From: Sipunculus nudus
Taxonomy: Eukaryota > Annelida > Sipuncula > Golfingiida > Sipunculidae
NCBI GenBank assembly: GCA_026874595.1
Contig: CM049308.1
Location: forward strand, 20,311,867-20,375,866
Reading direction: 5' to 3'
Length of the DNA: 64,000 bases
Shown: positions 1-52,600 of the stretch, piece after piece
Position numbering within the stretch: the stretch's first letter is position 1
Layout of the letters: each line of letters begins with the position of its first letter
Translations under genes and position numbers: made by a program
Notes under the pieces: generated by a model
Seen by the model: the letters and a program-made list of their open reading frames with translations, nothing else
What the model was told of the DNA's origin: nothing
The model's database searches: none

Positions 1-1036
1 ATGCCTAACCAATTTGCGTTGACCTCTGACCTTTCCTCTCTGCCAAGCGTCCGTTTGTGCGTCTGTTTTCACACATAAACCCACATATCTCGGGGCCCGT
101 TTGAACGATCAGGAAAAAAATTTTGTACAAATGTAGCCCTTGGATAGCTTTATAACATACACAAAAAATGGTGGCGCCACCTGCAACCATGTTTGCACAG
201 TGTCCATCTGTTCGTCTGCCTTGGGTTAAAATCACTCATATCTCCGCAGTTGTTTGACTAATTCACCTGAAATTTTGCATGCATATACATTCTGGATAAC
301 TTTCTTCATTCTATGACAGGTGGCACCACCTAGATTCACGTTCATGCTGCAGATATCCATGCTTATATCTCCACACTGGTTTGACGTATCTTCCTTAAAA
401 TTTGCATGTGATAGATCTCACTTAGCTCCTTACCATACGCAAAACTGGAGGCGCCACCTGCAACCACTTTTGCACAGCGTCCGTCTGTTTGTATGCTGTG
501 GGATAAAATCACTCATATCTCGGCAGTGGTTTCACATATCTGCCTAAAATTTTGCAGGTTTATACATTCTGAACAGCTATCTTGATTTTTTGATAGGTGG
601 CACCACCTACATTCTAGTTTATGCTGCAGACATCCAAGCTCACATCTAGGGAACCATTTGACCAATTGGGCGAAAATTGTGCATGTGTATAGATCTCACA
701 TAGCTCTTTATCATACACAAAACTGGAGGGGCCACCTGCAACCATTTTTGCACAGCGTCCGTCTGTTTGTCTGCCTTGGGCTAAAATGACTCGTATCTCA
801 GTATTGGTTTGACTAATCTGCCTAAAATTTTGCGTGTTTATACATCTTGGTTAGCTTTCTCGATTTTTTTGGCAGGTGGCACCACCTACAAACACATTTC
901 AGCTGCAGACATCCATGCTTATATGCAACACATCTCACTCTATTTCCCCTTACCACTCAATCCATGCCTCACTTGACCCGTTCCACTCTGATTTTGGTGG
1001 ATACACGTAGTCGCTAGTCGACTACCTGTATTCTAG
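1..1036 (+). mobile_element. Family A Helentron-like non-autonomous element, 3' part (cut by window start)
   Basis: Corresponds to the body of the copy at 51314-52349. Contains a dimeric tandem repeat of about 278 bp in which a GGTGGCGCCACC-type palindrome recurs at 170, 319, 447, 596, 725 and 875 (spacings 149, 128, 149, 129, 150). The 3' end has GGTGGATAC (inverted relative to the 5' GTATCCGCC of full copies), then a perfect 7-bp stem-loop GTAGTCG..CGACTAC, then CTGTATTCTAG. A hairpin followed closely by CTAG is the pattern of Helitron/Helentron 3' ends. No protein coding. Confidence 0.75.
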
Positions 1037-1086
1037 ATTGGACCTTGTTTTCATCATTTTTATACTACCCTAGTTTAGCCATCCTC

Positions 1087-1270
1087 AATGAAATGTCCAG
1101 TAGATCAGAGGGTTGTTCAGTCTGTTGGCCCAGTGGAAATTAGCCTGTGGACTCACTTAAGTTGTGATCAAGGGTTGAATCCCAATACAAAACAGTCAGA
1201 AGGGAAAGCATTTGTACAGCTATCTGTATCACTGGCTGGGAGAGGTTTGCGTGCTCTGTTTTGTACGTTA
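1087..1270 (+). repeat. Possible degenerate tRNA-derived SINE
   Basis: GGGTTGAATCCC near 1173 resembles a pol III B box, and an A-box-like stretch around 1105-1120 lies upstream at a plausible distance. Strongly decayed; flanks not resolved. Confidence 0.25.
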
Positions 1271-1639
1271 ACTTGGATGTAATTTCACTTTTTAGTAAAA
1301 AAATTAAATCAACATTTATTTGAATTCATTTAAGTTCATGTGATAAAATTTACTTTTTTTACCATCTTCTGCTTTACTCAAAATGTGTACAGGTTGATTG
1401 ACCATTTAACTGTTACAACTTGTGCATTTGTCCTTGCCAAGGGGAAAGAAAACATGAAATTCATATATAAATATATATTATATGGCCTATTAACTTTACA
1501 TATCATTCATATGGGTACCTATAATACATGCCTGTACAATAAACATTCACTAACAGCCATTTTTAATTGATCTTCAAATACTTTGCCGTTACTGCCTATT
1601 TTGTTTTTGGCTTCACCAGCCCTTTAAGCTGGTTCAAAT

Positions 1640-2335
1640 TCCTGTGTATTTCATACCATATATCTGGTCTTATAAGGCTACATGGTTCTAAGCGCCAGTA
1701 TAACTTTACCATGAATTTCAAACCCTGTATTATGAATCTCACTCTGGCCATGTGGCTGCCTGGTTCTTTGGGCTAGTGCTACTTTTTAATGCATTTCAAG
1801 CGGTCCCACTAAACACCCAAAACACCGGTGTTTTGGGTATCTGTGACGAAACACCACGCAACACCCACTTCACTTAGAACCTGAACCAAAAACGTAACAC
1901 CAGTCAATAGATAATCATCTGATGAATGTATCTCTGCAATATTGTTTCATAAATTCATGTCATAAAGATAAAAACGAGTGTTTCGTGCCGTGGTCGGTTC
2001 ACCGGCACCCACGGCAGCCGTTTATGCCAGCTATGACCCTGCCCCCTAGTGGCGCAATCAAGCAGCGCACTTGTCAATTGTACAAAAACACTATTGCTTT
2101 CTTTAATTTTACAGAAAAGTGGCACAAATTCTGTATTAACATATCCAACAGATGATAATTTATTAAATGATACAAGTGTTTTGCTTCAAATTTGAATTTT
2201 AAAAGGGTGTTTCATGGTGTTTCGTCACACGAACCCAAAACACCCGGTGTTTTGGGTGTTTCGGCGGACCCCATTTCAAGCCCTGTGTAATACTTCTGAC
2301 CTTGTGGCTGACTGGTTGTTTTGTAGCTGATTACT
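1640..2335. repeat. Three-unit tandem repeat (~80-90 bp) split by a MITE
   Basis: Units begin near TTTCAAACCCTGT (about 1717), TTCAAATTCCTGT (about 1634) and TTTCAAGCCCTGT (2274), each followed by a CTGGTT..TT motif such as GCTGCCTGGTTCTTTGG. The MITE at 1801-2272 sits inside the last junction. Confidence 0.5.
1801..2272. mobile_element. hAT-like MITE with 8-bp target duplication
   Basis: 472 bp with ~65-bp terminal inverted repeats (CGGTCC..ACACCCAAAACACC at the left, its complement ending GGACCCC at the right). Flanked by ATTTCAAG on both sides (1793-1800 and 2273-2280), an 8-bp target duplication as expected of hAT transposons. Each TIR contains a ~22-bp self-complementary block (1816-1837, perfect; 2234-2256, one extra C) centred on ACACCGGTGT, so each arm alone can fold. 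No transposase. Confidence 0.85.
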
Positions 2336-5300
2336 GCTGGGATACACCCTCATCAGACTGGCATGCTATGAATTTGCTGCCCCCACATACAGGGCTGTGG
2401 CAGGGCTGGCCAGGCAAGTCATTGTGATGTCTCCCCATCACCACAAGCACAGCTATGACCAGGACAGGGGTGTATGACTGCTGTGACAGCAATGGGTTGA
2501 TTGATAGATCATAAAATGAGTAACAACCACAAGTCATTGCTGAGTAATGGAATTGTTGAATATTGAGCCAAATTTTCCTTTCCTGCAAAACAGTTTCAGA
2601 TGATTTAAACATGATGGGTACCTGTGATCTATAGAAACATAAGGCACTGGTAGACTCATTTTATTTGCACAAACATTTAGAGTGCCTGATTGATGACCAG
2701 GTGACTGTCAAAAATAGATAAAGCCTGAAGTCTTTTTATTTGATATCAGGGGTAGATGCAAGAATTAAAAAAAATGACAGACCTTGAAAAACATATCAGT
2801 AGGATGGGGATATATAAGTGTGAAAAATAAGGAGATATTATAAAGATATAATAATATAATAAAAACAATATATAGTTTTTCAATATATTAATCCTGTGTG
2901 GTCAGGCAGAATCCCCCAAAAAGGTACCCAAGGGAAGGTGGAAACCAATCATACTTTCTCCAATTGTGGGGGGAGGGGAAAGGGAAAGCTACTTGAACTT
3001 ATGAAGTATATGGCATGTTCATGTACATTGAATTAAGGCTCAGCTGCCAGGCAAAACTTGTGTAAGGCATTAATTAGTGAAAACTTGCTGAATTAATTGA
3101 TGAGGACTATATTTTCATAGGATTTTATGTCTTTTGAATGTATATTAGACTGTCACATAATCTTATTCTCAGATATGGATCTTGAATTAGATTAAACTTG
3201 TTGTTGAAGACGTTTTTGGGTTAAAAAAATCTAAACTGTACAGTGCCTCTCATGATAACTTACCTGTACGTAATAGGTGTAGGTATCTCTTAATTCATAG
3301 CTGAGAACCCTCACACTTAGCATTACAGGCATGTTTATGATAGAGATGTGGAGCTGCCTCATTTAGAGGGATTTTTATGGTACAGGCCAGGGTTTGCCAC
3401 TTGTTGTTAGATTAGCTAGAATGTGTGTCCCCTTCAAGTATCCTGTTTATCACACTTTTAAACTTGATACAGGCTAAGGTATTTGGTGTATGTTGTGTGT
3501 AGGTGTAAACAGAATTGGGGTATTACACACACACACCCTTGCACAGGTATACACACACATACTGGATTTCTTGAAATAAATTTAGGGGTTTCCGTATTCA
3601 TTTGTGTATATGTACATCTGTCTGCAGAATAGATTGTAGGGACTGCCACTGGTGTCAACCTCTAATGCTTGATTTTGGTAAATAATTATCAATATTTGAA
3701 CTATACTAGTATGAGATGTCAGACATTTTGGGTAGAAGTACATTTTTATTCATGACAGCGTAATGCAAAGTCTGCTGTGTTATTGAGCATTAGTCCAGCT
3801 TTAAACCTTATAATAACTTTGTCCCATTTAAATAAGATGTAGGGAAATTATTATTATACTATGTAGGATATTTGTAGCTTGGGTTGTTATTGCAGCCAGG
3901 AGGTGACACCATATATTTAATTTTAACCACAACAACACTTTGATCTAACTATTGTGTCACTCCGTGACAATACATCACACACCTGGTGTATTCAACATAT
4001 ATATATATATATATATATATTGTGATTTACAGATTGACAATACATGTCCTTAAAACTCCTTATGCACAATAGATAACTGTTAATATTTAAAGCAGCAGTT
4101 ATTCCTGTGTGAACACTTGTACCCTTTTCATTGGAAACATTTGGTGGCATTGTGCCCTTATTCAGGATGTAGCTGTTATCAAAGGCTGCATATAGCTATA
4201 AAAACTACTGTGTATGGATATGGACCAAATATTTGCTGACAGATTCACAAAAAGTACTCCATATTATCCTGATCTGTGATAAAAACATTGGTTAGGTGTT
4301 GTTTGAGATGAATAACCCAAACAATATAAAAAAGTACAACACCAGTGGCCACGGCATGCTTTAAATGATGTAAGACTTGCCTTGCAAATAAGTTTATAGT
4401 TTAAGAACTAGTTTAACAAATACACCATAATGTACATATTTGGAAACTGCTTCAAAGAAGTATTTCCTTATTTCCTCATTGCCTGCATTGCTAAAATGAT
4501 GATGGCAATAGAAGCCTAGGTTTATATACCCATGGCTGAAATGTACACATTGGATCATGTATCCTTCTGAAATCAACATCCTATTCTGGCTAAAATGCTT
4601 GTTTGCAATGTACACTGAAAGAATGTCCTAGGCTGTAAAAAGTGGCTTTGGGATAGAATATACATCCATGGAGTTGATTTCTTTAGGGAGTAGTAGACAA
4701 TGCTTGCTGTTTATTATAAAATAGCTTCTCTTGATATTCATTTTATAAGCAGAAGTCTGATCTGGAGGGACTTGCTGTCTTTGTTTGATTGGTGTGAAAA
4801 CCAGACAGTAGAGACAGAGGTCAAGGCTGTATGGCTCTCCTGGCTGTTTATTTATTGGGATAGTATGGTAATTTGGACTGAGATGTCCTTAGAGGTCAGT
4901 GACTCAGGTCAGCCACCCATAAAGTATTCCAGTGCTGGATTTTGGTCAGAGACTGCCCAGGCCCTTCTGACCAGCCTGGTCAATTTCTCCAAACAGTAGT
5001 AAACAGTGCCTGTTCCATGACACTGCTGCAAACCATTTCTTTTCAGTGAAGGGCCAAGCATGGTCATGCTGTTGTAGGTCTGCAATGTAGCTGCTTGATT
5101 CCTGTACTGTACAGGGCTGGCATTTGACTGTTATGGTGCCATCCAGGCTGGATAAAGCTGCTTCAGGGACTGGTAGCCATCATAAAGCTGGAGCTGTGTT
5201 GTAGTTCAGCAGATGTTCGGCTCATTTGATATATTATTAGCATCTTCTTAATGAAGCTTTCTTCAGCAGAAGCAGATGTTGATCACAGGCAATGATTATA

Positions 5301-5888
5301 TACAATGATTCTATAAAACAGTGGCCAAAGGCTGATTTATCCACAAAAATCCTACATATTGATATTATGTTAATGTTGATGGTTCGTTTATTTTGTCAAA
5401 TATATATTCTGCAAACCATTGGTCGTGCATCCATGTATGTGTATAAACTGTGGTAGGCTTTATGTACTTGAGGGTTTCAGATTTGTGATACCGGTGAAGC
5501 GAAATAATCAAGTAAATGAAACCTTCATGAAAAACACTCACCATCATTGAAGTTCACAGTAATTTGTAAAGTAGGGTAGATTGGCATCTCCTTAATGTTA
5601 TCTAGACTAAGACCTACACTTGTACATGGTTGAAAGGTAAAATAAATTGATATTATAAATAATATAATAATAATTTATTTTACAAAGCATGAAATCCATG
5701 CTATGCATGCTCTAAAATGCTGATACATACAGAAAGATATGATATAATGAAACTAAATTAATCTTTAAAAGTACATCAGACAATTCAATAGATGAGGTTC
5801 CATAAAGTATTAATGACAAGATTAATAAAACTTAGCAAATAGGCAAGTTTTAAAATTTTATTTTGAATTCTTATGATTAAAAACATTC
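2336..5888. other. Gene-free stretch, no element recognised
   Basis: AT-rich unique-looking DNA with only scattered short ORFs and one (AT)n run at about 3997-4020. No coding signal, splice-bounded exon or repeat structure that I can support. Confidence 0.5.
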
Positions 5889-17027: not shown

Positions 17028-17074
17028 TTGTATCCCCAGACAAAGTCGGGGGATTCTATGTTTTCATACCGGTC

Positions 17075-17105
<31 letters not shown>
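17075..17105. repeat. (CCG)n microsatellite
   Basis: About ten CCG units just inside the 5' hairpin of the family B element. The equivalent site in other copies (CCGCCGTCGCCGCCG at 20711) is also CCG-rich, so the run belongs to the element. Confidence 0.9.
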
Positions 17106-17639
17106 ATATAAATCTTGTTGGCGCGATAACCCAAAAAATATTTCACGGAACTTTACCAAACTTGGTATATGTATAGATATGGGTGAGAGGACGACGCCTA
17201 TTTAAAATGAGGTCATGACCTATACTAAGAGAGTGTCCTTGACCTTGAATAGGTCCAATTTTGGGGAAAATCACACATATTCTTTAATATCTCAAGAAAT
17301 CTTGCATGGATTTATCCCAAAATCAAGTTGATGGAAGATCATGGATAGGGTTGTCATGTTCCAGAAACTGGTGGCGCCACCTATTATTCTTTACTTGTTT
17401 TCTTGCCGTTTAATTCCCCCAAAATTGCTTCCTTACAGTACTGTGAGCATTGTAAGTCAAAAACTAATGGACAGATTTCTTTTATATTATGCATATACAT
17501 AGGTATGGGTTATGGGATGATGTTTATTTAAATTGGGGTCATGACCTTTCCTATGATAGTGGCCGTGACCTTGAATATTGCCATATATGGTGAAAATCAC
17601 ACACCTCTTATGATATCTCCAGTGTTGATAGCCATATGG

Positions 17640-19790
17640 ATTTCAAACATGACTTATGTATGGCCCACCACTAAAGTAAGAACCCTATACGTTCTAGGGT
17701 CATGAGGTCAAAGGTCAAGGTCACTGGACTGGCATTTTAAAAGATACTGTGGATGCATTTTAAGCCAAACTTTCATCCTAGGTCTTCCATCTTTAATATA
17801 TAGCTCACTTGCCAATAGTGGATGATCCATATAAATTTTGGGGTCACAAGGTCAAAGGTCAAGGCCACAGGAGCTATCTGTCCAAAAATTAGTTTCTGGA
17901 TGATAATTCCTGCTTTTATTGATGTATTGATTTCAAACTTGACTTATATATGTCCCATTGAAAAAGCAAGACTCCAATTGATTTTGGGGTCATGAGGTCA
18001 AAGGTCAAGGTCACAGGACTGGAATTTTAAAAGATACTGTGGATGCATTTTAAGCCAAACATTTCATCTCAGACCTTTCATCTTGCACATGTAAGTCATC
18101 TGCCAATAGAGGAAGACCCCTATCAGTTTTGAGGTCACAAGGTCAAAGGTGAAGGTCACAGGAGCCATCTGTCCAAAAATTAGTTTCTGGATGATAATTC
18201 CTGCTTTTATTGATGTATGGATTTCAAACTTGACTTGTATATGTCCCATTGGAAAAGCAAGACCCAAATTGATTTTGGGGTCATGAGGTCAAAGGTCAAG
18301 GTCACAGGAAACCTCTTTAAAAAGATTGTGGATGCATTTTCAGCCAAACAATTCATCTCAGATCTTTCATCTTGCACATATAGTTCACCTGCCAAGAGTG
18401 GAAGACCCCTATCAATTTTGAGGTCACAAGGTCAAAGGTGAAGGTCACAGGAGCCATCCGTCCAAAAATTAGTTTCTGGATGATAATTCCTGCTTTTATT
18501 GATGTATGGATTTCAAACTTGACTTATATATGTCCCATTGGGAAAGCAAGACCCAAATTGATTTTGAGGTTATGAGGTCAAAGGTCAAGGTCACAGGACA
18601 CACCTTTAAAAAGATGTGGATGCATTTTCAGCCAAACATTTCATCTCAGATCTCTCATCTTGCACATATAGTTCACCTGCCAAGAGAGGAAGAACCCTAT
18701 CAATTTTGAGGTCACAAGGTCAAAGGTGAAGGTCACAGGAGCCATCTGTCCAAAAATTAGTTTCTGGATGATAATTCCTTCTTTTATTGATTTAGGATTT
18801 CAAACTTGACTTGAATTTGACCCATTGGAAAAGCAAGACCTGAATTGATTTTGGGGTCATGAGGTCAAAGGTCAAGGTCACAGGACACATCTTTAAAAAG
18901 ATGTGGATGCATTTTCAGCCAAACAATTCATCTCAGATCTTTCATCTTGCACATATAGTTCACCTGCCAAGAGTGGAAGACCCCTATCAATTTTGAGGTC
19001 ACAAGGTCAAAGGTGAAGGTCACAGGAGCCATCTGTCCAAAAATTAGTTTCTGGATGATAATTCCTGCTTTTATTGATGTATGGATTTCAAACTTGACTT
19101 GTATATGTCCCATTGGAAAAGCAAGACCCAAATTGATTTTGGGGTCATGAGGTCAAAGGTCAAGGTCACAGGACACATCTTTAAAAAGATGTGGATACAT
19201 TTTCAGCCAAACAATTCATCTCAGATCTTTCATCTTGCACATATAGTTCACCTGCCAAGAGTGGAAGACCCCTATCAATTTTGAGGTCACAAGGTCAAAG
19301 GTGAAGGTCACAGGAGCCATCTGTCCAAAAATTAGTTTCTGGATGATAATTCCTGCTTTTATTGATGTATGGATTTCAAACTTGACTTGTATATGTCCCA
19401 TTGGAAAAGCAAGACCCAAATTGATTTTGGGGTCATGAGGTCAAAGGTCAAGGTCACAGGACACATCTTTAAAAAGATGTGGATGCATTTTCAGCCAAAC
19501 ATTTCATCTCAGATCTTTCATCTTGCACATATAGTTCTCCTGCCAAGAGAGGAAGAACACTATCAAATTTGAGGTCACAAGGTCAAAGGTGAAGGTCACA
19601 GGAGCCATCTGTCCAAAAATTAGTTTCTGGGTGATAATTCCTGCTTTATTGATGTATAGATTTCAAACTTAACTTGCATATGTCCCATTGGAAAAAGCAA
19701 GACCAGAATTGATTTTGGGGTCATGAGGTCAAAGGTCAAGGTCACAGGACACATCTTTAAAAAGATCAAGGTCACAGGACCAACATCTTC
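17640..19790 (+). repeat. ~288-bp tandem array carrying AGGTCA half-sites
   Basis: About seven dimeric units of ~288 bp (GATTTCAAACTTGACTT recurs near 18222, 18511, 19086, 19374). Each has two ~144-bp modules: one with GAGGTCAAAGGTCAAGGTCA, one with AGGTCAAAGGTGAAGGTCA. The half-site cluster appears about 15 times. Apparent ~67-codon ORFs on both strands repeat with the array and are by-products of it. Confidence 0.9.
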
Positions 19791-20149
19791 AACAAGATTG
19801 TGGATTGTTAGATGGAAGAAACAATAAATATGCCAAGTGTCAGTATATGCTGCTAAAAATGGGGGTCTATTTATAAAGGGGGTGGGGGCCTACTATGTCT
19901 GGGGATACTCTGGCACCTGCGGTGCCAAGAAATGTCTAGTTTACACATGGTTTCTGAATGAGTTGTGGATATAGTAGTGTGTACAATAAGTGATAACAAC
20001 TGCATCCATGGGTCATATCTTATCAGAATCAGTTGAGCTGGTATGTTTGTTTATCTGGCCAATAGTTATCCATCTGTCTGTTTAATGTTTAATCATGAAT
20101 GAATGTCACCTGATAACTATAACTTTACATCACATACAGAGGCATGCAG

Positions 20150-20659: not shown

Positions 20660-22345
20660 ATTGTATCCACCAAAAAAAAGATTTGCTGATACTATGTTTT
20701 TGACTAGGTTCCGCCGTCGCCGCCGTATTCGTTTCCGGAGAACTCCTCTGAGACTACTGGACTGATTTTTCCAAAACTTATCGGGTCACATGTGTACTGG
20801 TGCCTAACTAATTGCCGTTGACCTCTGACCTTTCCTCTCTGCCCAACGTCTATTTGTGCGTCTGTTTCCACACATAAACCCACATAACTCGGGAACCGTT
20901 TGATCGATCAGGAAAAAAATATTGTACAAATGTAGCCCTTGGATAGCTTTATAACATACACAAAAAATTGTGGCGCCACCTGCAACCATGTTTGCACAGT
21001 GTCCATGTGTCTGCCTTTGGTTAAAATCACACATATCTCTGCAGTGGATTGACTAATTCACCTGAAATGTTGCATGTGTATACATCTTGGATAGCTTTCT
21101 CAATTTTTTTTTTGGCAGGTGGCGCCACCTACATTTATGTTAACGCTGCAGACAATTAGGCTTATATCTCGGGACTGGTTGCAAATATCCCCTTATAATT
21201 TTGCATGACAAGCGGTGCCCTATATTGATCACCGTGTCAGTCTGTCCTTCTGTCCTTCCATCCATTCTTCCGTACTTCTGTCCTTCCGTCAGTGACACTT
21301 TCTTTCACGCTTGACAACTCAATAACAACATACTGCAGCTTTCCCAAATTCACAGGATGATTGGTACCTATGAGGGCTCCAGACCTATGGAATAACAGAC
21401 ATGTAGGAATTCCAGTATGGCTGCCACAGCCCAGGGACGAGTGGTACCTATGAGGGCTCAAGACTTATTGAATTACAGACCTGTCTGAATTCCAATATGG
21501 CCTCCACAGCCCGATCGCTGTTTTCTTTCGCTTATGATAACTCAACTGCAGCATTTTTCAAATTCACAGGGATGATAGGTACCTAAAAGGGGGTCCACGC
21601 TATTGAATTGCAGACCTGTCAGAATACCAATATGGCCGCCACAGCAAAATCACTGATTTTTTTCTTGGACAATAACTCAACAACAACCCACTACAGCTTT
21701 CCCAAATTCACAGGGATGATTGGTACCTATAAGGGCTCAAGACCTATTGAAATACAGACCTGTTGGAATTTCAATATGGCTGCCACAGCCAAATCACTAA
21801 ATTTCTTTCGCGCGGGATAACTCAACAACAATATACTTCAGCTTTTCCAAATTTACAGGGATGGTTGGTACATATGAGGACTCCAGACCTATTGAATTAC
21901 ATTTTGTTGGAATTAGTATATGGCAGCCACAGTTGGAATAAGTATATGGCAGCCACAGTTGGAATTAGTATATGGCAGCCACAGCCTGATCACTGATTTT
22001 CTTTCGCACGCGATTACTCAACAACAACCTACTGTAGCTTTCCAAATTTCACAGGGATCATTGAGCCCTATGAGGGCTTAAGACCTATTGTATTACAGAC
22101 TTGCTCAAAATCAAATATGGCTAACAGACTATTTTCAGTGATTTTCTATGGCACACATTATTTCAGACATATCTTCTTTAATATCATTTGATCCAGTACG
22201 ATTTTTTCATCATGCATATTGATAAAAACCTGTGTCTGTTTGTGATATTTTCAAATTTAACTTAATTTTTTACCCATATGTAAAGTAGTCCAGCACTAGC
22301 AGAGACGCGGGGCCCTCTGAGAACCATGGTCCAACCACATCTAGT
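20660..22345 (+). mobile_element. Family A element, copy 2, with a second tandem core
   Basis: 5' end ATTGTATCCACC with hairpin partner GCTGATACTATG and the CCGCCGTCGCCGCCG tract. GGCGCCACC palindromes at 20969-20980 and 21118-21129 (149 apart). From about 21300 the core changes to a ~148-bp tandem repeat (AAATTCACAGGGATGATTGG near 21347, 21551, 21699, 21848, 22046; a CACAGCC module). The 3' end has a CAGAG..CTCTG stem-loop and finishes CCACATCTAGTT, like other copies. May be a composite of two elements. Confidence 0.65.
21906..21983 (+). repeat. 26-bp direct repeat, three copies
   Basis: GTTGGAATTAGTATATGGCA followed by GCCACA occurs at 21906, 21932 and 21958 with one base difference; a local expansion inside the larger tandem array. 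Confidence 0.85.
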
Positions 22346-24129: not shown

Positions 24130-24319
24130 CGTATTGACTTTCAGCTCATTCTTAGATTACAATCAGTAAATCATTTAGGGATCCCATGACCTCCACACAA
24201 TGAAAGGTTGTGTGGACACTTGAAATTGGGGTGTCACAAAAACACACAGTGGTCATTGCTACTGTGGTGTTGCCAACACCTGCAGGACACAAATACTGGA
24301 GTAAACCCTGCACAATAAT

Positions 24320-26526
24320 ATATATGTCAGAGACGAGATTGAAATCCAGGAGGATTTTAAATTCGCCTAGACGAGATTGCGATTGTGATCTCGCCTAGGC
24401 GAGATTGTAATTGTGATCCTGGCTAGACGGATTTTAAACTCGCCTAGACCAGATCACAATCGCAATCTCGCCTAGGCGACATTAAAATCCATCATGGAGC
24501 AGGCCAGGATTTTAATCTCGTCTAGGCGAGTTTAAAATCTGTCTGGTGTCATCCAGGCGAGTTTAAAATCTGCCTGATATCACTTGGGCGAGTTTAAAAT
24601 CTGCCTAGGTGAGATTAAAATAGTGATCTGATCTAATTTCCCAATAAATTATGCACTGTAATTGACTTATGAAAGATGTTTTCAGTCAGATTTTCAATAT
24701 TTTAACACTGAATGGTTATGTATAGTTCACAAGTAATATATTTGTTAATATTTACAGAATATTATATTATTAATTAAATAATTAACATTAATTTAGGAAT
24801 GGAATATTTTATATTATATATTTTTTATTAATATGGCTATGTATAGTTCACAAGTAATATATATTTAATATTATTTACAGAATATTATAATATTTATGTA
24901 ATAATTAACATTAATTTTTTTATTTTATATTTTTATTTATAAACTGTGTAATAAGAAACTTACATTGGTATTGTATATGGCATATTCAAATGATATATGA
25001 TGTGGGCTGCTGCTGATTATTTACATACCGGTAATAATTTTGTTGTCAATATTAATTTGAAGGGAAACTGGAATAAGTAATATTAGTAATGTAGTATTTT
25101 AAAAAAACAAAAGGAACATAGCTCATTTATTTTTTATCAATATAATTCAATGCATGTTCACATGCATAAATGATCTATTACTCTATGAATCTAGAAATCA
25201 TATTTTTTCTGATATGATATAATACTGTCCAAAAAAAGGCAGTTATCTTGTAACACAGTCTGCATAAATATTGAAGCTTCACAAAATGCCTCACAAAACA
25301 TTAAAAAAAAAGATAAGAAGAATATTATATACATTATAAGAAAAGACTAAATAAGACAAAGAAATATTCACTTGCATACATCTGTGTATCAACTTTTACT
25401 TTTTCTCATATGATGTTTAATTACCTAAAAAAAGGATGGTGTATCAAAGTCCATCATAAATACTGATACCCTGCATATTTTGTACCATAAGTGTACATGT
25501 TTTGACTGTTGAGTGTTGAATACCTGGGTGAAAAGAAACATTTGAACTAGATCAACCAACTAATTTGTTCTGCTTGTCCTGTAAGATTTATCAAATAGGA
25601 TGATTGTTTATGTTAATGTGTAATATACTCATTAAATAGTGAAGTAATAGCTATCTAAACTAATCTATCTGTCTGTCTATCTATCTATCTATGATTGATT
25701 CATTATGCAACTGGATGACTTTTTCCCCCAGATTTGCTCTTCATAATATCTCATAAGTGTGCTTCAATATACCTCTTGTTACTCTCTAATTGCCATATAG
25801 CCATATATTTAAATACAATTACAAATTATTTTTTTGTAAAAATTATTAGTGATATTTACAATCCCAAGGTTCTTAAGAAAACTGGAGAAAAAAAATAAAG
25901 ATTAATTAATGTTTAGCAAATAATTGGTATGATAAGGATGCTGTAGACCACATGAAACACATCAAAGGTTCAAATAATAATCAAATATCTATTTCATAAT
26001 TCTGTTTCCAAAATAAATGTTAATTATCACATGAATAATTATTACATTACTGTAAAAAAGTTAATTATTACATTAATACTATAATATTCTGTAAATATTA
26101 ATAAATATATTACCTTTTAACTATATATAACCATTCAGTGTTAAAATATTGAAAATCCGACTGAAAACATCTTTCATATGTCAATTACAATGCTTAATAT
26201 ATTAGGAAATTAGATCAGATCACTATGTTAATCTCGCCTAGGCAGATTTTAAACTCGCCTAAGTAATATCAGGCAGATTTTAAACTCGCAGGGATGACAC
26301 CAGGCGGATTTTAAACTCGCCTAGGCGAGATTAAAATCCTGGCCTGCTCCATGATGGATTTTAATCTCGCCTAGGCGAGATTGCGATTGTGATCTCGTCT
26401 AGGCGAGTTTAAAATCTGTCTACCCGAGATCACAATTGCAATCTCGCCTAGGCGAGATCACAATTGCAATCTCGTCTAGGCGAATTTAAAATCTGCCTGT
26501 ATTTCAATCTCGTCTCTGACATATAT
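24320..26526. mobile_element. Large foldback element with CTCGCCTAGGCGAG palindrome arrays
   Basis: Inverted arms of ~0.5 kb (24326-24800 against about 26030-26520) with outer ends GTCAGAGACGAGATTG and its complement, both next to ATATAT. The outer ~300 bp of each arm is built from short palindromes CTCGCCTAGGCGAG (24390, 26316, 26366, 26443) and variants joined by GATTGCGATTGTGATC or TTTAAAATC linkers. The ~1.1-kb centre is AT-rich with no transposase; GTATAGTTCACAAGTAATAT is duplicated at about 24720 and 24840. Confidence 0.85.
25668..25691. repeat. (CTAT)n microsatellite
   Basis: Short CTAT/CTGT tetranucleotide run in the centre of the foldback element. Confidence 0.8.
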
Positions 26527-26876
26527 ACATGTACCTAGACTAAATGCTACTCTTGTAATGGGGTTAGCAGCCGAGGGGTTATGACTTCTAGCCCCACTGT
26601 TACTGATCATTAAATAAAATGTGCTGGAATTTTCAATAAGGACAGGGCTCAAAATTTTTGTGTCAGAGATATTAATGTAAAATGATAAGGTCATCTTAGT
26701 ACTTTTACTGTTCTGGACTGCCTTTAAAGTTTGAAGGATGTTGTGTATACTGTGCTGTCTGTTTGTTTGTCTGTCTGGGTGCAAGATATATACTGTAAAA
26801 GGTATAGATCTATAGATCTGAGTCCTTTTGCACAGATTAAATTTTAGATATCATATACATGAAAAAAGATTTTCTC

Positions 26877-28060: not shown

Positions 28061-30705
28061 TTTAGCTCAGCTGACTATAAGTCATCTGAGCTATAGTCGT
28101 GGTCAATTGTCCGTCGTCCGTGCGTCTTGCCGTCCGTCCATCCGTAGATGTGGCACATTTTGAAACCGTAAGAACTAGGAATCCAAAATTCAGCATAATG
28201 TTAGATGTCCCCAAGATCTCCTACCAAGCCGAAAACTGGGTCTTTGCGACTTTGTTCCTTTTAGAAATTAAGGAAAAACCTCAATTTTTTATTAAAAACC
28301 TATTTTTACACTTCAGGACTGCCTAATATCAAACCACTCATCTGTTTTTCCTCATATTTACCATAATTATTCCTCTATATAGTTCCTATGAACATGCCAG
28401 AAATTATGTCTGTATTATGTAAATTTAAAAAGTTATGGGCCAAAACATAATGCATTTTGTAAAAAATCAGGAAAGATATTTGATCACTTAACACAAAATA
28501 AGTTAAAGCTATAAACTTTTTTTCCAGTAATATAACTTTAATTAATCAAAATTAAATTGTATACCCAAAATTAGATCAAAATCTTTTAAATTTTTTTAAA
28601 TATTAACAAAAATAAAAAACTGGTTCCTTAAATTTTGCCCAACTTTGACCATGGCATGTTTTTTCCTGTAGGTACTGTAGATTTAATTTTTACTGCATGA
28701 TTTTGTTAGCATTTTGTCTGTAAACACCAAAAATTTGAAACCAGTTGATCAAAAACTGTAGATTTTATTCAAGTTTTCAAGCACCATGTAACATTTTGTT
28801 TACATCAAGCTAGTGTCATGCAGTTTGCAAGTGCTCAGCTCCCCAGCTTCAGCTCTCAGTTCCTAAAATTTGGCATGCAATTAGATGTCTCAAAAATCCC
28901 CTACCATGCCAAGAATTTGGTCACTAGGACTTAATACCTTCGAGATATTAATGAAAAACTTCATTTTTCCATTAAAAACCCATTGTTACACTTCAAGACT
29001 GCCTAATATCAAAACCACTGATCTGACTTTAATCATATATAATATACAAATTTTTCTATACATTCTCTATGCACATGCCAGAAATGATGTCAGTATTGCG
29101 TAATTGTTTTAAGTGATGGGCCCAAACATAATGCACTTTGTAAAAAATCAAGAAATATATTTACTCCCTTAAAAGAGGATTGCTGAAGCTAGAGATTTTT
29201 TGTCAGGGATGTAACATTATTTAATCAAGATTCAATTGAATACCCAAAATTAGTTCGAATTTTTTCAAATTTTATAAGTTATTAGTATAAATATAAAATT
29301 AGTACCTTAAATTTTGCCCAACTTTGACCATGGCATGTTTGTTTCCTGTGAGCACTGTTGATATAATTTTCGTATCATGCACACATAAAGATTTCAGCTT
29401 TTTAGTTTAAAAAGCTGAAAGAAATTGGCCAAAAATTGTAGCTTTTATTAATGTTTTAATGAGACCATGTCAGACCTTGGCTCTCTGTAGCACCTCTTTA
29501 GTCACCTGTATACATGTTGACCTTGTTGAACTTTCAGCAAATTATGCATGCTTGAGGGGAGGCATAAACTTGGGCTCCAGGCAGCTTATTATATAATGGC
29601 CAGCCACAGTTGATCCAGGTGTCCAACCCAACTCATCTAGTAGTTTTAACCAACAACATAACAATAAACAATAAATTAATAAATTTTTATTGGTTTTTAA
29701 TAACAAATTAAAGAAAAATAGAAAAGGAATTTGTTAGTTGATAATAACAGGAAATTAACTTGCAGTTACCGATGATATAAGATTCTTGTATTGATGGATA
29801 GAATGTCACGTATTCCAAATAACACCATGCAGTCACCTATGGTATTTATCAGTTCAATTTTAATGATAAAAAAGTAAATCATATTATTCATTACTAATCA
29901 TTAGGGATCATATGAAGGAAATTAATGATAGACAAAGATGCAGTTGATAATATTATTATCTAGATTCCTACTGTGTCTATAGTTAGTACATTGATGTGAA
30001 ATTAGTCCAAAATGAATATATTACATTTGTTTTAAATATAAATAAAAGCCATAAAACCAGGTACTTATGATCATTATTTAAATGAGTGAATTTTGTATAT
30101 TCTGGATTCTCAACATCATTGTTTGGTGAAAACTGAATAAATACCAGACATGGTGCGAATACTTTGCAATTGTATTTAAACACGAATATGAATATGTACT
30201 CCATTATAAAATTTCTTTCATAAGAATGGGAATTCAGGTAAAAATGAAAGTATATGAATACCAGTGCAAATACCTTCAAAATGTATTAATGAATCCATTC
30301 ATGAATATATTCTTTAATATTATTTTAATAATCATTTCAGTTATATTTTATTTGAAAAAATCATACTATTCTCTTATTATTTTTAATAAAAATTATATTT
30401 GGGACAATATTTGTAATTTTTTTAATAAAAAGTTAAACTCTTATATTATATGTTCTGCTTATAAGTTATATGGCCAAGTCAAAATCTGTGTGACAATCGC
30501 ACTCCATTTGTTAATAAAATAAATGAAATTAATCCTCTTTCCTGTCTCCAAAGGTACTATCAAAATCATACATAAGCTAAACAACAACAACTCATAATAC
30601 AGCTTATTTTTATTACCACATAAAACCAGCATGTGCCTCATTTCTAAATCATATTTTTTTATCATATATAACAGCTGAGCGCCGTGACCCATAGGTCCCT
30701 TGTTT
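28061..30705 (+). mobile_element. Family C Helentron-like element, copy 1
   Basis: 5' end TTTAGCTCAGCTGACTATAA folds with GTCATCTGAGCT; a GTCCGTCGTCCGTGCGTC tract follows. The core has two ~680-bp tandem units (TTAGATGTCCCCAAGATCTC at about 28201, TTAGATGTCTCAAAAATCCC at about 28881) with shared blocks such as AATTTTGCCCAACTTTGACC. The 3' end is CAGCTGAGCG, then a GACCCATAGGTC stem-loop, then CCTTGTTT. The AT-rich part 29550-30660 shows no repeat or gene and may be a later insertion. Confidence 0.75.
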
Positions 30706-34834: not shown

Positions 34835-35207
34835 TTTTTGTACATGTAGCCTTTTGAAACCAAGGGGTTCTTTGTTCAGTGAACTGGAGTAATATAATGA
34901 AGTGTACCCACTGGAACAGTGACCTCACCAGTTATTTGAATCCCATCATAGGCAACAAATTGTTTTCCCTAAGTATACAATGTAGCTGTATATTATTCTC
35001 TTTCTTTTATATGGAGCCATTAAATCATTTTTTGTTCCGAGAAAGCGGGGAACAACAAACATTGGTGCATCCAGTCTATATATATGCCCACATTTTGCAG
35101 AAAGTTTGGTTAACAGTTACAAGTGTCATTGCCTGTTTAATTTTGTAGGTCCATTTATCTACTACAGACAGTGGGTAATGTTTTAAAAAAGTTTTAGTTG
35201 TATCCCC

Positions 35208-36640
35208 AGACAAAGTCACAATACTATGGTTTAAGCACGGTCAAGCCACCACCGCAGAGATTTCGTTTGGACGCGATAGCTCAAAAAAATATTATACGGT
35301 TCTTTACCAAACTTGACATGTGCATATATATGGGTGAGAGAAGGAAGCCTTTTTAAAATGGGGTCTTGACCTTTACTAGCAGAGTGACCTTGACGTTGAA
35401 TAGGTCCATTTTGGGGGAAAATCAGACAAATACCTGAAGAAATCTTGCATGGATTGGACCAAAATTCAACTTGGCAGAAGGTCTTGACCAGTTAGTGTTG
35501 TCATGTACCAAAAACTGGTGGCGCCACCTGTTATCCTTTTCTTGTTTTTGTGCTGTTTAATACCCCCATCATTGCCACTTAACAGGACTTGGAGCATTTT
35601 AAGTCAAAAACTAATGGACAGATTTCTTTCATATTATGCATATGCAAAGACATGGGTTATTGGATGATGTATATTTAAATTGGAGTCATGAACTTTCCTG
35701 TGAGAGTGGTCTTGACCTTGAATATATTGTCATGTATGGTGAAATATCACACAAAATCATAAATATCTCAATAAGGGATGCATAAATTGGTCCAAAAACA
35801 AATTGACCAAAGATTTGAGACAGCTTTGTCTTCTGGGGAAGACAGGTGGCGCCACCTTCTGAAAGTTTCTTGTTTTTGTGCCTGTCATCTTTGCCACTTG
35901 ACAGTACTGTGAGCATTATAAGTCTAAAACTAATGGACAGAGGGCTGTAATTGTGCAGGTCCTTTGATCTTGGATACCTCCATCTTGTATTCAAGACAAG
36001 TGGCACTATCTACAGTCATAATTGTGTGCCGTCCATCTGTCCATTTGCTTTTGGTGAAAACTGCTTATATCTCTGGAGTGGTTCAAGGTATAGGTCTGAA
36101 ATTTGGCATGTCAATCCATCTTGGAAAGTATTCTTGTAAACCAGACAGGTGGCGACACCTACCTTCCCTATTTAAAGAATAAATTAATGGAGTGATTTGC
36201 CCTATTAGCCTGAAATTGTGCATAACCACAGATCTTGTACTCAAGACTGGTGGTGCCATCTGCAATCATTTTGGCATGGTGTCCATCTGTACATGTGCTT
36301 TGGGTGAAAATTGTTCATACCTCTGGAGTGGTTCAAGGTAATGGTCTTAAATTTGGTATGTCTATCCATCTTGGAAAATTTTCTCATACACCAGACAGGT
36401 GGCGCCACCTTCCTTCCCATTTCAGTAAAATAAATTAATGCTCTTTTCTCTAGAGAGTTTCAAAATATTAAAACATATCTATCAAGTTGATAGATGGAAG
36501 AATCCATAATGGCTTGCCAAGTGTCAGTTTATGCTGCTAAGGTTGGGGGGCCTGTTGTTGAAGGGGGGGGGGGGGGAGGGGCGGGGGGATTAATTGTCTG
36601 GGGATACTATGGCATCTGTGGTGCCAAGAAATATCATGTT
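35208..36640 (+). mobile_element. Family B Helentron-like element, copy 2, with GGCGCCACC core
   Basis: 5' TTGTATCCCCAGACAAAGTC and 3' TGTCTGGGGATACTATGG (about 36595), then GGCATCTGTGGTGCC stem-loop and AAGAAATATCATGTTT. The core differs from copy 1: palindromes GGTGGCGCCACC at 35517-35528, 35845-35856 and 36398-36409, with decayed ones at 36148 and 36249. A G-run precedes the 3' end. Confidence 0.8.
36562..36595. repeat. G-rich tract (quadruplex-prone)
   Basis: A run of about 16 G, then AGGGGCGGGGGG; sits just inside the 3' inverted repeat of the family B element. Confidence 0.85.
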
Positions 36641-37239: not shown

Positions 37240-38087
37240 TTTAGCTCAGCTGACTGACAGCTATGGTTTCATTTAGTCTCCAAAATTCTGGTCATTTCAT
37301 TGATCGTTAGTGGATGCTCTATAGTAGTTACTCTGTCTGTCCGTCTGTTTGACTGTCTGTCTGTCTGTCAGTCCATCAACATAAATTTTGTTTCCAGATG
37401 ATGACTCGAGGTTGGATTGACATGGATTTCAAACCTCATGTATGGGCCACCTCTAAAGCAAGAACTCTTATGGTTTTTTTGGGTCATGAGGTCAAAGGTC
37501 AAGGTCACAGGGGCCATCTTTCCACAAATTAGTTTCCAGATGAAACTCCAGTTTGGTTTGACATATTGACTTATGTATGGCCCACCACTAAAGCAAGAAT
37601 CCTTATGGTTTTTTGGGTCATAGGGTTGAAGGTCAGGATCACAGGGCCCATCCATTCACAAATTAGGATGATAACAATGGATGATAACTCTAGTTTGGCT
37701 AGATGTATTGACTTCTTACTTGTTTCACTAATGACCCACCACTTAATTAAGAAACATTTTGATTTTCAGGTCCTGAGGTTGAAGGTGAAGGTCACAGGAG
37801 CTTTTCATACCAAACTGTTCATCTTTCACACATGGCTTACTTGCCCAAAGTGGAAGAAATCTTTAGATTTGAGGTTACTTGGTCAGAGGTCAAGGTTGCT
37901 GGACCCACTTTTTTTAAAAGATTGTTATGAAAATCTAAATGCTGTAAGTTCAAGGATAGTAAATTCTCAGGTTTTTTGTTACAAGGCCATTAGTTAAGGT
38001 CACAGGATCAACATTTTGAAAAAGATCATAAAATATCCTTTCAGACTAATTCAGCTGAGCGTTGAGACCCATGGGTCCCTAGTTATT
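37240..38087 (+). mobile_element. Family C element, copy 3, with AGGTCA core
   Basis: 5' TTAGCTCAGCTGACTGACAG, a CTGTCTGTCCGTCTG tract, and 3' TCAGCTGAGCG, stem-loop GACCCATGGGTC, CCTAGTTA. Its core holds GAGGTCAAAGGTCAAGGTCA (about 37489) and weaker copies to 38010, i.e. the core type of family B copy 1, not of family C copies 1 and 2. Confidence 0.75.
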
Positions 38088-46245: not shown

Positions 46246-49200
46246 TAGCTCAGCTGACTATAAGTCATCTGAGCTATAGTCGTGGTCCATTGTCCGTTGT
46301 CCGTCCATCTGTCTGTCCGTCCGTCTGTTCGTCTGGATGTCCGTCCGTAAGACTGGCACGTTTCGACACCGTTGGACCTACGAATCTGAAATTGGGCATA
46401 CAGTTAGATGTCCCTAAAATCTCCTACCATGCCGAAAATTTGGTCAATAGGACTTAGTTCCTTTGAGATATTAAGGAAAAACCTCAATTTTTTATTAGAA
46501 ATCTATTTTCACACTTCAGGACTGTCTTATATCAAAACCACTCATCTGGTTTTCTTCATATTTACCATAAATATTCCTCTATATAGTTTCTATGTACATG
46601 CCAGATATTAAGTCTGTATTATATAATTTAAAGAAGTTATGGGCCCAAACATAATGGACTTTGTAAAAAAATCAGGAAGATATTTGGTCACTTAAGACCA
46701 AAAGTGTTAAAGGTAGGGACTTTTTTCCAGTAATACAACTTTAATTAATCGAAATTAAATTGTATACCAAAAATTAGATCAAAATCTGGTAAATTTTTTT
46801 GGCAAAAATATAAAATTGGTACCTTAAATTTTGCCCAACTTTGGCTACGGCACGTTTTTTTTCCTGCAAGTACTGTGGATTTAATTTTCACAGCATGTAT
46901 ACATAAGGATTTAATCTGTTAAAATCTGAAATTTGAAAATAAAAGCTGCAAAATTAGGCTAGTTATTGAATTTTTTTTGAGGCTCTTGTTGTATTCCCTT
47001 TAATTGTCAAGCAGTCCACTTTGATGACTGTAGGTCATTCAGTGCACATCTCTATGCTCCCCAGGCTGTTGGCATAATTTTAGATGTCCTCAAAAAATCC
47101 TACCATACCAAAAATTTGGTCATTAGGACTTTGTTCTTTCGAGATATTAAGGAAAAAAAACTCCGTTTTCCATAAAAAAGCCATTGTTACACTTCAAGGC
47201 TGCCTAATATCAAAACCACTGATCTGTTTTTGATTGTATTTAGTATTCACTTTCTTTCATACATTTTCTACGAACATACCAAAAATTAGGTCAGTATTGG
47301 GTATTATTTTGAAGTTATGGGGCAAAACATGATGAATTTTTAAAAAAATCAGGAAATATATTTACTCACCTAACATGAGAATTGCTGAACCTAGAGACTT
47401 TTTTTCAGGAATATAACTTTATTTAATCAAGATTCAAGTGTTTACCCAAAATTAGATCTGAATTTTGCAAATTTTTCAAGTTATTAGCATAAATAATAAA
47501 TCAATACCTTAAATTTTTGTCCAACTTTGGCACTGTTGATTTAATTTTCACAGCATATATACATAAGGATTTAATCTTTTAAAATCTGAAATTTCAAAGA
47601 AATTGATTGGAAAGAATAGCTTTTATTCATGTTTTCATACACCATGTCAAGTGTTGTTTACATCTAGCCCACCTAGTAGTACAGCCTTCACTTGCATTAT
47701 GTAACCCACCCCAGGCAGCTTGCCTTGGGTCAGCTTGGCCACTACCAGCAGGCTTCCCCTCTGCCCTGCACTCCCCCCCCCCAGCAGGTGCATAAACTAG
47801 ATGAATGTTATTATTTTCTGTATTTGATTCATTCTTATTCTAGGCTATGCTACATTTTAGATTTTGTATTTTACCACCAGGGTTACAGTGATTAAAATGT
47901 ACATTTAATTGTTTCCACAAAGTGGTGTATTGCTATGAAAGTGTGGATGTTCATGAGATAAGTAATTCCTTTCTTCAGAGGAGTAAAAACTTCACCAGGT
48001 GTGAAATTGAGTATTAATTCCAGTAATAAATTAAAACTGGGATAGTAATTAGCACAATGATATTGTTTGTCCCTCATTCAACCAACAGTGTGTTTACTTT
48101 ATTTGAAAAGATGTTTTTATTTGATCAAATTTACTGAATCTTTTATTTTATTTTGGTGAATAAAATTAAGCATGTACTGAAAACTCCAATGTGCAAAACT
48201 TTTTAATAGTGATTCAAGGAATATTCTTGTAGATGCCATGTTGTGGCATTATTTTCTTTTAAATTCAGTTTAAACATTTATGATTTAAAAATAATTAAAT
48301 ATATGTGTATGCATAATATGACCCAATATGAGCTACACTCTGGATATATGATGATTGCAACTTTTGCAACAATTCTAATATTTTAACTTATAGTTTCAGT
48401 TTTTTACTCTGTATATATAATGATTGCAACTTTTGCAACAATTCTAATATTTAAATTATATTTTCAGGTTTTTTTTATTAAAAATTTATAAAACCTGTAA
48501 ATAAAAGAATGATTCAGATATAAACTTCTTAATGGAAAATGTGGATATGCTTAAAAAAAAATAGGATTATATATAAACTTAAATGCATTATTCCCTTGAA
48601 AGTGAAATAAAGGTATTAGTCCATTCTGTCAACTTGCCTGTCCATCTGTAAATTTTCATATGCATCACAGTATCTCAAAACTTTTACTGTTTTTCTTCAT
48701 GACAGAGTATTAATTGCAATCATATATTTAGAACTTTACTGTAACCAAGTAGGAGGGCCCCTTTCCTCTTAGCTTTTCATATTCTTATATAAATGAAAAA
48801 CATTACAATAGAATATTTCTACATCCACCTTCGTGCTGCCCTCACTTTTCCCTTCTCCGAACCCCATCCCAAAGTCAGCCTCAGTAAGCAAGAACAAGAT
48901 GAATCAGATATATTCATACTTTAATATTTTGTATAACTATTCATCCATAGGTACCTATGTACATGCCAGAAATTATGTCAGTATTGTGTAATATGTAGAC
49001 ATAGTGGGCATCACAATGATGTACCTTGTCAAGACTAAAGAGATATTGTGTCATACAGTCACAAATTCATGAATCACTTCATCAGCATAGTTAATCATAA
49101 CATCATATCTGTCAAATTGAAAGCTTGCAGACTACCATACACTTTAGATCCTTCAACAAATAGCCTTATTATCATTCTACTGCTGCTTATTACTGCTGTC

Positions 49201-49466
49201 ATTGCATTCATATTTGCTCAAATATATCACAATTTCAACCCCTCCTAAATAAATAAAAAATAAACCACTATATTTGACTCTATTAATCCATCAGTCAGGT
49301 AATTTCATTTATCATTTACTCACATATTATATTAAATTCCTTTATAATAGCCCAACATGTCCATGATATTCATAAGCTTTATCGACTTGATATAGTATCA
49401 CAGTGGAGAAACATTTATAGTCCAATCATGATCAGCTGAGGGCCGTGACCCATGGGTCCCTTGTTT
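46246..49466 (+). mobile_element. Family C Helentron-like element, copy 2
   Basis: 5' TAGCTCAGCTGACTATAA with GTCATCTGAGCT hairpin and a repeated GTCCGTCC tract. Tandem core units at about 46390-47040 and 47070-47640 align with those of 28061-30705 (e.g. AATTTTGCCCAACTTTGGC), and a third partial unit lies near 48950-49040. The 3' end is ATCAGCTGAGGG, GACCCATGGGTC stem-loop, CCTTGTTT. It ends only 110 bp before the first visible calpain exon. A ~69-bp direct duplication (ATGATTGCAACTTTTGCAAC) lies at 48339-48475. Confidence 0.75.
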
Positions 49467-49576
49467 CTTCTTTGAGAATAGTAAAGACATTACATGCATT
49501 AACCACTTGAATTTTACAATTACTACTACAACGTAATCATTACAAAAATATTCATACAATGCTGTTTTATTGACAG

Positions 49577-49646
49577 GAGCTGGTTAGCAACCCACGCCTG
49601 TTCGTTGGTGGTGCCAGCCGATTTGATGTCAAGCAGGGAGAACTGG
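49577..49646 (+). CDS. Calpain exon (a): pre-catalytic segment
   Basis: Encodes [18 protein letters not shown] then KQGEL, plus the first base of the Gly codon of GDCW. Preceded by TTGACAG and followed by GTAAGG. Starts in phase 0 and ends after one base of a codon, matching the next exon. Lys sits where many vertebrate calpains have Cys/Asn in DxxQG; other invertebrate calpains also have Lys. The exon that should precede it (the LFEDPEFP..W.RP segment of the family) was not found upstream. Confidence 0.93.
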
Positions 49647-52600
49647 GTAAGGACCTGGCATTTATACCTCTCATACAATTTTATGGTCTGTAACTGGTTG
49701 TTTAGCTTCATGTATTAAATATGAAGAAGTAAAATGTCAGTTCCAGTCAGTGAAAGGCTGCTGTACTCTATAGAGAAGACCTTACAGCTTGATAATACAT
49801 ACTAATAAAATGGACTGGAAAGCCCACTTGACTTTTGACACAAGTCATATTGGAAAGTGCACTGCAGTGGTCAGCCATTCTGTTGCATTTATATTGTAGT
49901 AAACAGCTGGTAATTTTAACTTTAGGCTATGAGTTATGAATTAACAATAACAGTATTAGAATTCATGTGAACTGTCATTTTCTGTATTACATAAAAGTCA
50001 GCTATTGTCAAGTAACCCATGCAAGACCCAGTTGTATTCAATTGATTAGAAATTCAATTAGTATGCAGGGGGATTTATCAGTATCTTGAGATATGAGAGA
50101 ATTATTCTCATGTATGGTAGGTGTTCTTAGACAACATGTTGAAAATGATCTTATCTTAATGAATTAAGATGTGCACTATTTATATTCCTGACTTTGGTAA
50201 TCATATGCGTCAATATATATATACAATGGTGCAATGCAAAGCACATCTTTTTTTCAGTCTATGAAAAAAATTGGGAATTGACGCTAATTTTACTCTTTTT
50301 TTTGCATAGCCCCCAGTGTCCACAGAGCAATTAAGCTCTGACAGCTTCACAGCCATACCAGATGTTTGTCTGCCTGGTATAGCCAGTGACCTGGGGAAGA
50401 AGCAAGCAAGCTTATGTGCATCAATGCTAACAGATATATATCTAACTTTTAAATATTTTCAAAATCCAGAGACGGAATTATATCAGCTTTACATGAATAA
50501 ACTTATGGGCAAATTATATCTGGACTCCCTCCAATCTGATGTACCAAAACCTGGTGTGGGACCTGAGGTGCCAGTGGTTTACCTGAGGTGCCAGTGGTTT
50601 ACCTCGGGTAGACTGGTATAAGGGATGTACAGGACATGAGAGCACTAACTCTGTTTTTGGTGATTAACCTTTGCCAGGCCTGGTATCTGAACCTTTCTCT
50701 CTCTATCAGGTGACTGCTGGCTTCTCGCTGCTATCGCTTCCCTGGCCCAGCACAAGACCATCCTGTTCCAGGTTGTTCCGCCGGATCAGCTCTTTGACAA
50801 GGAATATGCCGGAATCTTCCATTTCCGTTTCTGGCAGTATGGCGAGTGGCAAGATGTCATCATTGATGATCGTCTGCCTACATATGGAGGACGCTTGGTT
50901 TTCATGCATTCTGCAGACAACAATGAATTCTGGACCCCGCTTTTGGAAAAGGCATATGCAAAGTGAGTGGATACCCTATTAAGCCAATGTGGGCTTTGAA
51001 TTACCTATGTTAAGAGCATTTGGCTGTATACTAATAATTATGTTGGAAACTCAAAGGAAATCTGCTTAACATCATGACAACATGGATGATATTTTTGTGA
51101 TTGGCTCCAGTTGTTATGAAGCTTTTAACATTTTTATAAGCAAAACCATATCTACCCATCAAATGAATTTATTCAAAGATTACAGATTAAAGTCTACTAA
51201 CTATTGCATGTTTCAGATGGTCAATGAAGCTACTAGGGCACTGTATGCTTTAACATACAGTAATTGATTATTTGTCTAATAATAATGTCAGACAACGACT
51301 AATGGTAGTTTTCATTGTATCCGCCAAAACAAAGTTTTGCGGATACAATGTTTTTGACCAGGTTCCGCTGCCACTGCTGCCGCATTCGTTTTGCGAATAG
51401 AACTCTTAGACCACTGGACAGATTTTTCCAAAACTTTTCATGATTATCGGGTCACATGTGAACTGGTGCCAAAATATTTTGCGTTGACCTCTGCCCTTTC
51501 TTCCCTCCAGTGCGTCCATCTGTTCGTCTGTTTTGACACATTAATCCACATATCTTTGGACTCCTTTGACAAATCAGGAAAACATTTATGCACAAATGTA
51601 GCCCTTGGATAGCTTTATAACATACATAGAAAATGGTGGCGCCACCTGCAGACATTTTTGCACAGGGCCCATCAGTTCATCTGCCTTGGGATAAAATCAC
51701 TCATATCTCTGCAGTGAATGGACTTATCCATCTGAGGTTTTGCATGTGTATTCATCCTGGATAGCTTTCTTGATTTTATGACAGATGGCGCCACCTTCAT
51801 TCATGTTCAGGCTGCAGACATCCAGGCTTATATCTCAGGACTGGTTTGACGTAGCCTCCCAAAATTTAGCATGTGTATAGATTTCACATAGCTCTTTATC
51901 ATATGCAAAACTGGTAGGCCACCTGCAACCTTTTTTGCACAGGATCCATCTGTTTGTCTGCTGTGGGATAAAATAACTCATATATCGGCAGTGGTTTGAC
52001 TTATTTGCCTTAAATTTTGCATTTATATACATCTTGGATAGCTTTCTCCATTTTGTGGCATGTGGCGCCACCTACTTTCACGTTCAGGCTGCAGACATCC
52101 TGGCTTATATCTCAGGACTGGTTTGACTTATCTGCCTAAAATTTTACAATTGTATACAACCTGCATAACTTTCTGGATTTTGTGGCAGGTGGTGCCACCT
52201 ACATACACATTTTGGCTGCATACATCCATGTTAATATGCAACACACCTCTCTCTATTTCCCCTTGCCACTCAGTCCATGCCTCACTTCACCCGTCCCACT
52301 CTGGTTTCGGCGGATACACGAAATCGCTTGTTGACTACCCGTATTCTAGTTCATATTGTTGATGTTGAGCAGCAATAGCTCACTTTAGGACATTTGATTG
52401 ACATTTAATTTAAAAATTATATTTTTAAGTTTATCCAAGTATCTTTTGGATAGTAATATTGCTCAAACTTTGATTAAATAATTTGCAGCATTGTCCCATG
52501 TGGTGGTGATTTCTAATTGTTAAACCTCAGTGCTGCCATCTTGGGGCGATAATACACATCATTGTACAGATGGTTCATTCAAAAATAAGAAATATTTGTC

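Follow-up and report, generated by a model that had tools for sequence, protein, structure and literature searches.

A palindrome recurring in the central repeats of HINE-like elements: mild constraint on a CpG-containing dyad that is not a convincing CTCF site

The window studied here, the whole stretch of 64 kb of DNA that was analyzed (64% A+T, G+C 0.36, no N), raises the question of why a short palindrome should recur in it at regular distances, and whether this pattern reflects selection on a protein-binding site such as that of CTCF. The perfect palindrome, GGTGGCGCCACC, first occurs at positions 170–181 (no strand assigned) and was verified by a site check and a shuffle test. The first-pass annotation had placed perfect or one-mismatch copies at 17 coordinates, 15 of which indeed lie within one mismatch of GGTGGCGCCACC and seven of which are perfect (170, 17370, 21118, 35517, 35845, 36398, and 51635). 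The exceptions are the site at 725, with two mismatches, and the one at 51913, a decayed copy with an indel and more than two mismatches, for which the alignment puts the start at 51912. The copies at 21117, 35844, and 36397 extend to the 14-bp AGGTGGCGCCACCT. A scan of the window revealed 16 sites with at most one mismatch, including an additional one-mismatch site at 36148 that was absent from the annotation. The same threshold gave no site at all in 100 dinucleotide shuffles of the window, which excludes a chance origin. The recurrence is thus real. The sites are not independent because all 16 fall in five repeated elements (three A, two B/C), in which the palindrome sites form parts of 20 homologous repeat units.

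The families were delimited by self-BLAST and repeat scans, and all five elements lie on the plus strand. Element A copy 1 (1–1036) is truncated by the window start; its palindromes are located at 170, 319, 447, 596, 725, and 875, and its 3′ side consists of a subTIR (992–1004), a hairpin (1007–1025), and a TCTAG end at 1036. Copy 2 of this family (20660–21207), recognized by its self-BLAST match to copy 3 (78.5% over 564 bp), contains palindromes at 20969 and 21118 and a degraded 5′ subTIR with two mismatches at 20663. The similarity stops at 21207 and the 3′ side is missing. Copy 3 (51314–52349) has both ends, with central repeats between them: a 5′ subTIR at 51317 with an inverted partner, palindromes at 51635, 51784, 51912 (decayed), 52061, and 52188, a 3′ subTIR at 52305–52317, a decayed 3′ hairpin, and a TCTAG terminus. 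Since its start lies about 350 bp downstream of an exon-like frame (50691–50966) encoding part of a calpain protease (PF00648, E = 2.7e-40), this copy may lie in an intron.

Element B copy 1 (17030–19939) has a 5′ subTIR and a 288-bp tandem array. It encloses a (CCG)n microsatellite (17075–17105) and a palindrome at 17370, and its 3′ side comprises a subTIR (19893–19908), a hairpin (19911–19927), and a TCTAG end. The 288-bp array contains nine AGGTCA-N-AGGTCA words (17697–19766), a DR1-like motif of nuclear receptors; elsewhere we found one such word at 37489 (37476–37660) and two in reverse orientation in A elements (at 20 and 20819). Element B/C copy 2 (35200–36638), with a 5′ subTIR at 35200, has palindromes at 35517 and 35845 in B units and at 36148 and 36398 in C units, which resemble those of family A. 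Decayed palindromes at 35999 and 36249 belong to two further C units, making four A-like C units altogether, and the element closes with a subTIR (36594–36607), a hairpin (36610–36626), and the end ATCATG. The site at 36398 had been assigned to family B; it does lie inside the second B element, but its monomers resemble A (72.6% over 164 bp). Other repeats of the window are an element at 24319–26527, whose inverted arms of 491 bp are 91% complementary and which also has subrepeats of 28/31 bp and CGCCTAGGCG palindromes, a further family with a unit length of about 680 bp at both 28115–29315 and 46318–47517, and a 33-bp tandem repeat (58522–58815; 8.9 copies, 95%).

The five elements resemble HINEs, i.e., non-autonomous Helentrons, judging from the organization of their ends and centers. 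SubTIRs of about 11–15 bp form complete 5′ and 3′ pairs in three of the five copies (A copy 3 and both B copies), while a single one is present in A copy 1, whose 5′ end is outside the window, and in A copy 2, which has no 3′ side. The B subTIR is GTATCCCCAGACA (at 17030 and 35200, with its complement at 19893 and 36594), and that of A copy 3 is GTATCCGCCAAAA (51317 versus 52305, one mismatch). An inverted partner (IR) beside the 5′ subTIR gives a long hairpin in A copy 3 (-13.6 kcal/mol); by eye it is partial in B copy 1 and A copy 2, and it is not obvious in B copy 2. The 3′ hairpin folds in three of the four copies with a 3′ end (-7.1, -7.4, and -4.9, versus 0.0 in A copy 3). Three of these four also end in TCTAG, and the base that follows the 3′ end is a T in three of four. 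The central part is occupied by tandem repeats (277- and 288-bp arrays), with the (CCG)n microsatellite in B copy 1. The plan of the ends matches that published for HINEs (PMC4067079; PMC7492417), and the central repeats of Pacific oyster HINEs are described as satellite-like (PMC7492417; PMC8268682).

This organization accounts for the regular distances, as the palindrome lies within tandem repeats. In family A, a 149-bp monomer (A1) and a diverged 128-bp one (A2) that follows it make up a 277-bp unit, and the palindromes are spaced by 149, 128, 149, 129, and 150 bp in copy 1, by 149 bp in copy 2, and by 149, 128, 149, and 127 bp in copy 3. The alternation of 149 and 128 bp noted in the first-pass annotation is therefore right except for the last step of copy 3, where two A2 units adjoin. 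The same annotation took the steady spacing, with diverging flanks, as a hint that the palindrome is selected, but in family A the spacing gives no such hint: every aligned column lies 277, 278, or 279 bp from its counterpart in the next unit of the same type, so that constant spacing is a property of the array and no sign of selection. Selection on spacing was thus rejected for family A, and array regularity in such repeats is not in itself evidence of selection. In family B, the single pair of neighboring units is separated by 317 to 333 bp depending on the column (328 bp at the palindrome).

To compare sequence divergence, we counted as changed each cell that differs from the consensus of its subtype, using a 13-bp palindrome segment and 18 of the 20 units (six A1, seven A2, three B, and two C2; the two C1 units at 35999 and 36249 were excluded). 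Changed cells make up 13/233 in the palindrome and 358/2631 elsewhere, a 2.4 times lower divergence (P = 1e-4), although this and all following P values are optimistic because the 20 units of one window are related rather than independent. The difference is retained in family A alone (12/168 versus 208/1538, P = 0.01) and when B is left out (13/194 versus 234/1792, P = 0.005). By unit type, it is found in A2 (6/91 versus 109/744, P = 0.02) and B (0/39 versus 124/839, P = 0.002) and is not significant in A1 (6/77 versus 99/794, P = 0.15) or C2 (1/26 versus 26/254, P = 0.26). When all 13-bp windows are ranked, the palindrome comes first of 116 in A2 and shares the top place with four other windows of 388 in B. 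In A1 it ranks no higher than 39th among 137, and the best window there lies 6 bp further to the right. Between types (A1 versus A2, A versus B, and A versus C with C1 included), it is the best of 126 windows each time, in alignments for which the palindrome itself served as a partial anchor. Column shuffles of consensus monomers gave P = 0.036 (all A1 and A2), 0.52 (internal A1 and A2), 0.08 (A2 and B), 0.30 (internal A1 and B), 0.065 (A2 and C2), and 0.0006 (B and C2). In addition, the palindrome is common to A and B units although self-BLAST aligned neither to the other.

Of the 18 units, 12 retain the central CpG, compared to 23 of 102 cells in the other columns with a CpG in at least one unit (counts summed by hand; P = 4e-4), and no other CpG column is retained as often in any of the four unit types examined. 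The CpG o/e is 0.32 in the window, 0.20–0.22 in the B elements, and 0.47–0.76 in the A elements. Retention is therefore most telling in B and less so in A, whose elements are not CpG-poor. The two halves of the palindrome do not covary: there are 22 one-sided changes and no two-sided, compensatory ones, leaving symmetry as such unsupported. Of the 20 sites, 13 have a CAGGTGGC half. Overall, these comparisons support moderate constraint on a short segment and do not support dyad symmetry as its object. The claim that the palindrome is selected consequently stands in part: pooled divergence is lower and the CpG is kept unusually often, but by window rank the palindrome does not stand out in the A1 units.

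Other origins of the palindrome were considered as well. Folding of three examples gave -3.0, -4.5, and -6.8 kcal/mol with a script whose energy parameters are unverified, the last example showing partial pairing of the palindrome with downstream bases, and a strong single-strand structure was rejected on these three folds. A known RNA or tRNA was likewise rejected (no Rfam match at gathering score, none by ARAGORN). The palindrome may also resemble E-box and E2F sites. Scans elsewhere yielded 4 + 1 matches in viral contigs and one in genome contigs, at loci with a G+C of 0.52–0.65 versus 0.36 in the window. BLAST of five of these loci to the window gave no similarity, the sixth was assessed from its composition and flank alone, and all six were taken as chance matches. 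A full-text search for GGTGGCGCCACC and related words, with figures and supplements outside its coverage, returned no mollusc or transposon paper by title, and the palindrome is not used in the accessible part of PMC11136912.

The first-pass annotation had also likened the palindrome core to CTCF-type sites and proposed that the elements disperse such an architectural site. With an approximate vertebrate CTCF matrix, the mean best score of the 20 sites is 7.4 bits, and two sites reach 14 bits and four reach 10 bits. The AGGTGGCGCC core agrees with that of CTCF sites (AGGTGGCGC type), and this likeness goes beyond composition, since only 5 of 1000 column-permuted matrices equal the real one in average score over the 20 sites. 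Two single sites score as high as 16.7 and 16.9 bits (same vertebrate matrix), and CpG retention would suit an occupied site. Against this, the core matches but the full matrix does not: 18 of the 20 sites stay below 14 bits and 16 below 10, and a CC at matrix positions 4–5 is found in none of the 20 best alignments (a C at position 5 in four, at position 4 in one). Moreover, when CTCF-like sites are ranked across the window, the top five (2037, 3893, 60831, 44767, and 52531) lie outside the five elements, and palindrome sites appear as the sixth and seventh (35847 and 51637). The strongest of all is located at 2037–2055 (23.1 bits with the same matrix). A CTCF reading is thus possible for single sites and unlikely for the family, the palindrome is not a convincing CTCF site, and dispersal of a CTCF-type site by these elements appears quite improbable to us. 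As to published context, CTCF orthologs are reported in molluscs (review, PMC10658182), a CCCTC-like motif is enriched at squid TAD boundaries (PMC9023564), and GTGGCGCCACCT is part of an sgRNA for the deletion HS+44 in work for which a CTCF antibody is listed (PMC13083895); the literature on CTCF and Helitron and on CTCF in molluscs (including PMC10658181) offered background only.

We somewhat favor an explanation that combines a HINE central-repeat origin, rolling-circle spread, and a mildly constrained, protein-occupied dyad. The palindrome is a core segment of satellite-like central repeats, as the anatomy of the elements shows, and joint duplication of two diverged monomers as a 277-bp unit accounts for the 149/128 spacing. 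Rolling-circle transposition, as expected from the family, may then have spread the palindrome through the window. On moderate statistics, the 13-bp segment diverges more slowly than the remainder of the repeats and loses its central CpG less often, and a DNA-binding protein on the dyad, either a host factor or part of the Helentron machinery, would be the likeliest cause of this constraint. Such a protein need not be CTCF. Passive hitch-hiking, in which the palindrome has no role and its conservation stems from chance, recent common ancestry, or array homogenization, is unlikely but deserves some weight: it agrees with the rank of the palindrome in A1 units (39th of 137), with P values above 0.05 in four of the six consensus shuffle tests, and with a family A spacing common to all columns, yet it fits poorly with the lower pooled divergence, with a CpG column that is top-retained in all four unit types tested, and with a palindrome common to A and B units that self-BLAST did not align.

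The palindrome might also act as a recombination or replication box at which monomers exchange or arrays join flanking DNA, as suggested by mollusc repeats: phBglII400 satellite junctions map to palindromes in four mollusc species, 13 of 16 of them at a 12-bp palindrome, and in the DTC84 element a conserved palindrome lies close to the junction of the repeats (PMC5139131). We consider this very improbable here. The same paper found no such junction clustering in two other satellites, and the single fitted exchange (units 52061/52188) falls at 52119–52128, 46 bp past one palindrome and 59 bp short of the next. By eye, the change from B to C near 35940 and that from the B unit to the 288-bp array at about 17622–17635 also occur away from the palindrome. 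A broader, rather doubtful possibility is that HINEs spread a short dyad with a CpG in it, in one to six copies per element and at near-nucleosomal spacing. A zinc-finger protein sensitive to methylation, be it CTCF or a different one, would bind this dyad and shield its CpG from decay, so that rolling-circle transposons would seed multivalent architectural or regulatory sites in this genome. Our preferred reading, from the sequence features described above, is more modest: the repeats are of the ordinary HINE type, and their dyad is mildly constrained and probably protein-bound. A striking regular palindrome can thereby be placed in the central repeats of Helentron-type elements, a context already known. 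Its slower decay, and that of its CpG, raises the question of whether HINE central repeats are carriers of protein-binding sites.

The organization described here has counterparts in several known systems. phBglII400 and DTC84 of molluscs (PMC5139131) share the presence of a palindrome (12 bp in phBglII400) in satellite-like or pearl-type-element repeats, but phBglII400 junctions cluster at the palindrome while the junction fitted here does not. The DINE-1/HINE elements of Drosophila and mites (PMC4067079) have the same plan of the ends, a T-rich/TT insertion preference, and central repeats. The Cg_HINEs of the Pacific oyster (PMC7492417) share subTIRs, an IR at the 5′ subTIR, a left-side microsatellite, central repeats that are satellite-like, and a 3′ palindrome. 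Cg_HINE_10_13 contains two consecutive kinds of repeats, like B/C here, and two segments are common to otherwise dissimilar monomers (PMC7492417). Cg_HINE monomers mostly measure 160–180 bp (51%; PMC7492417), compared to 149, 128, 250, 288, and about 326 bp here, and the repeats of the present elements carry GGTGGCGCCACC, for which the full-text search returned no mollusc or transposon paper by title.
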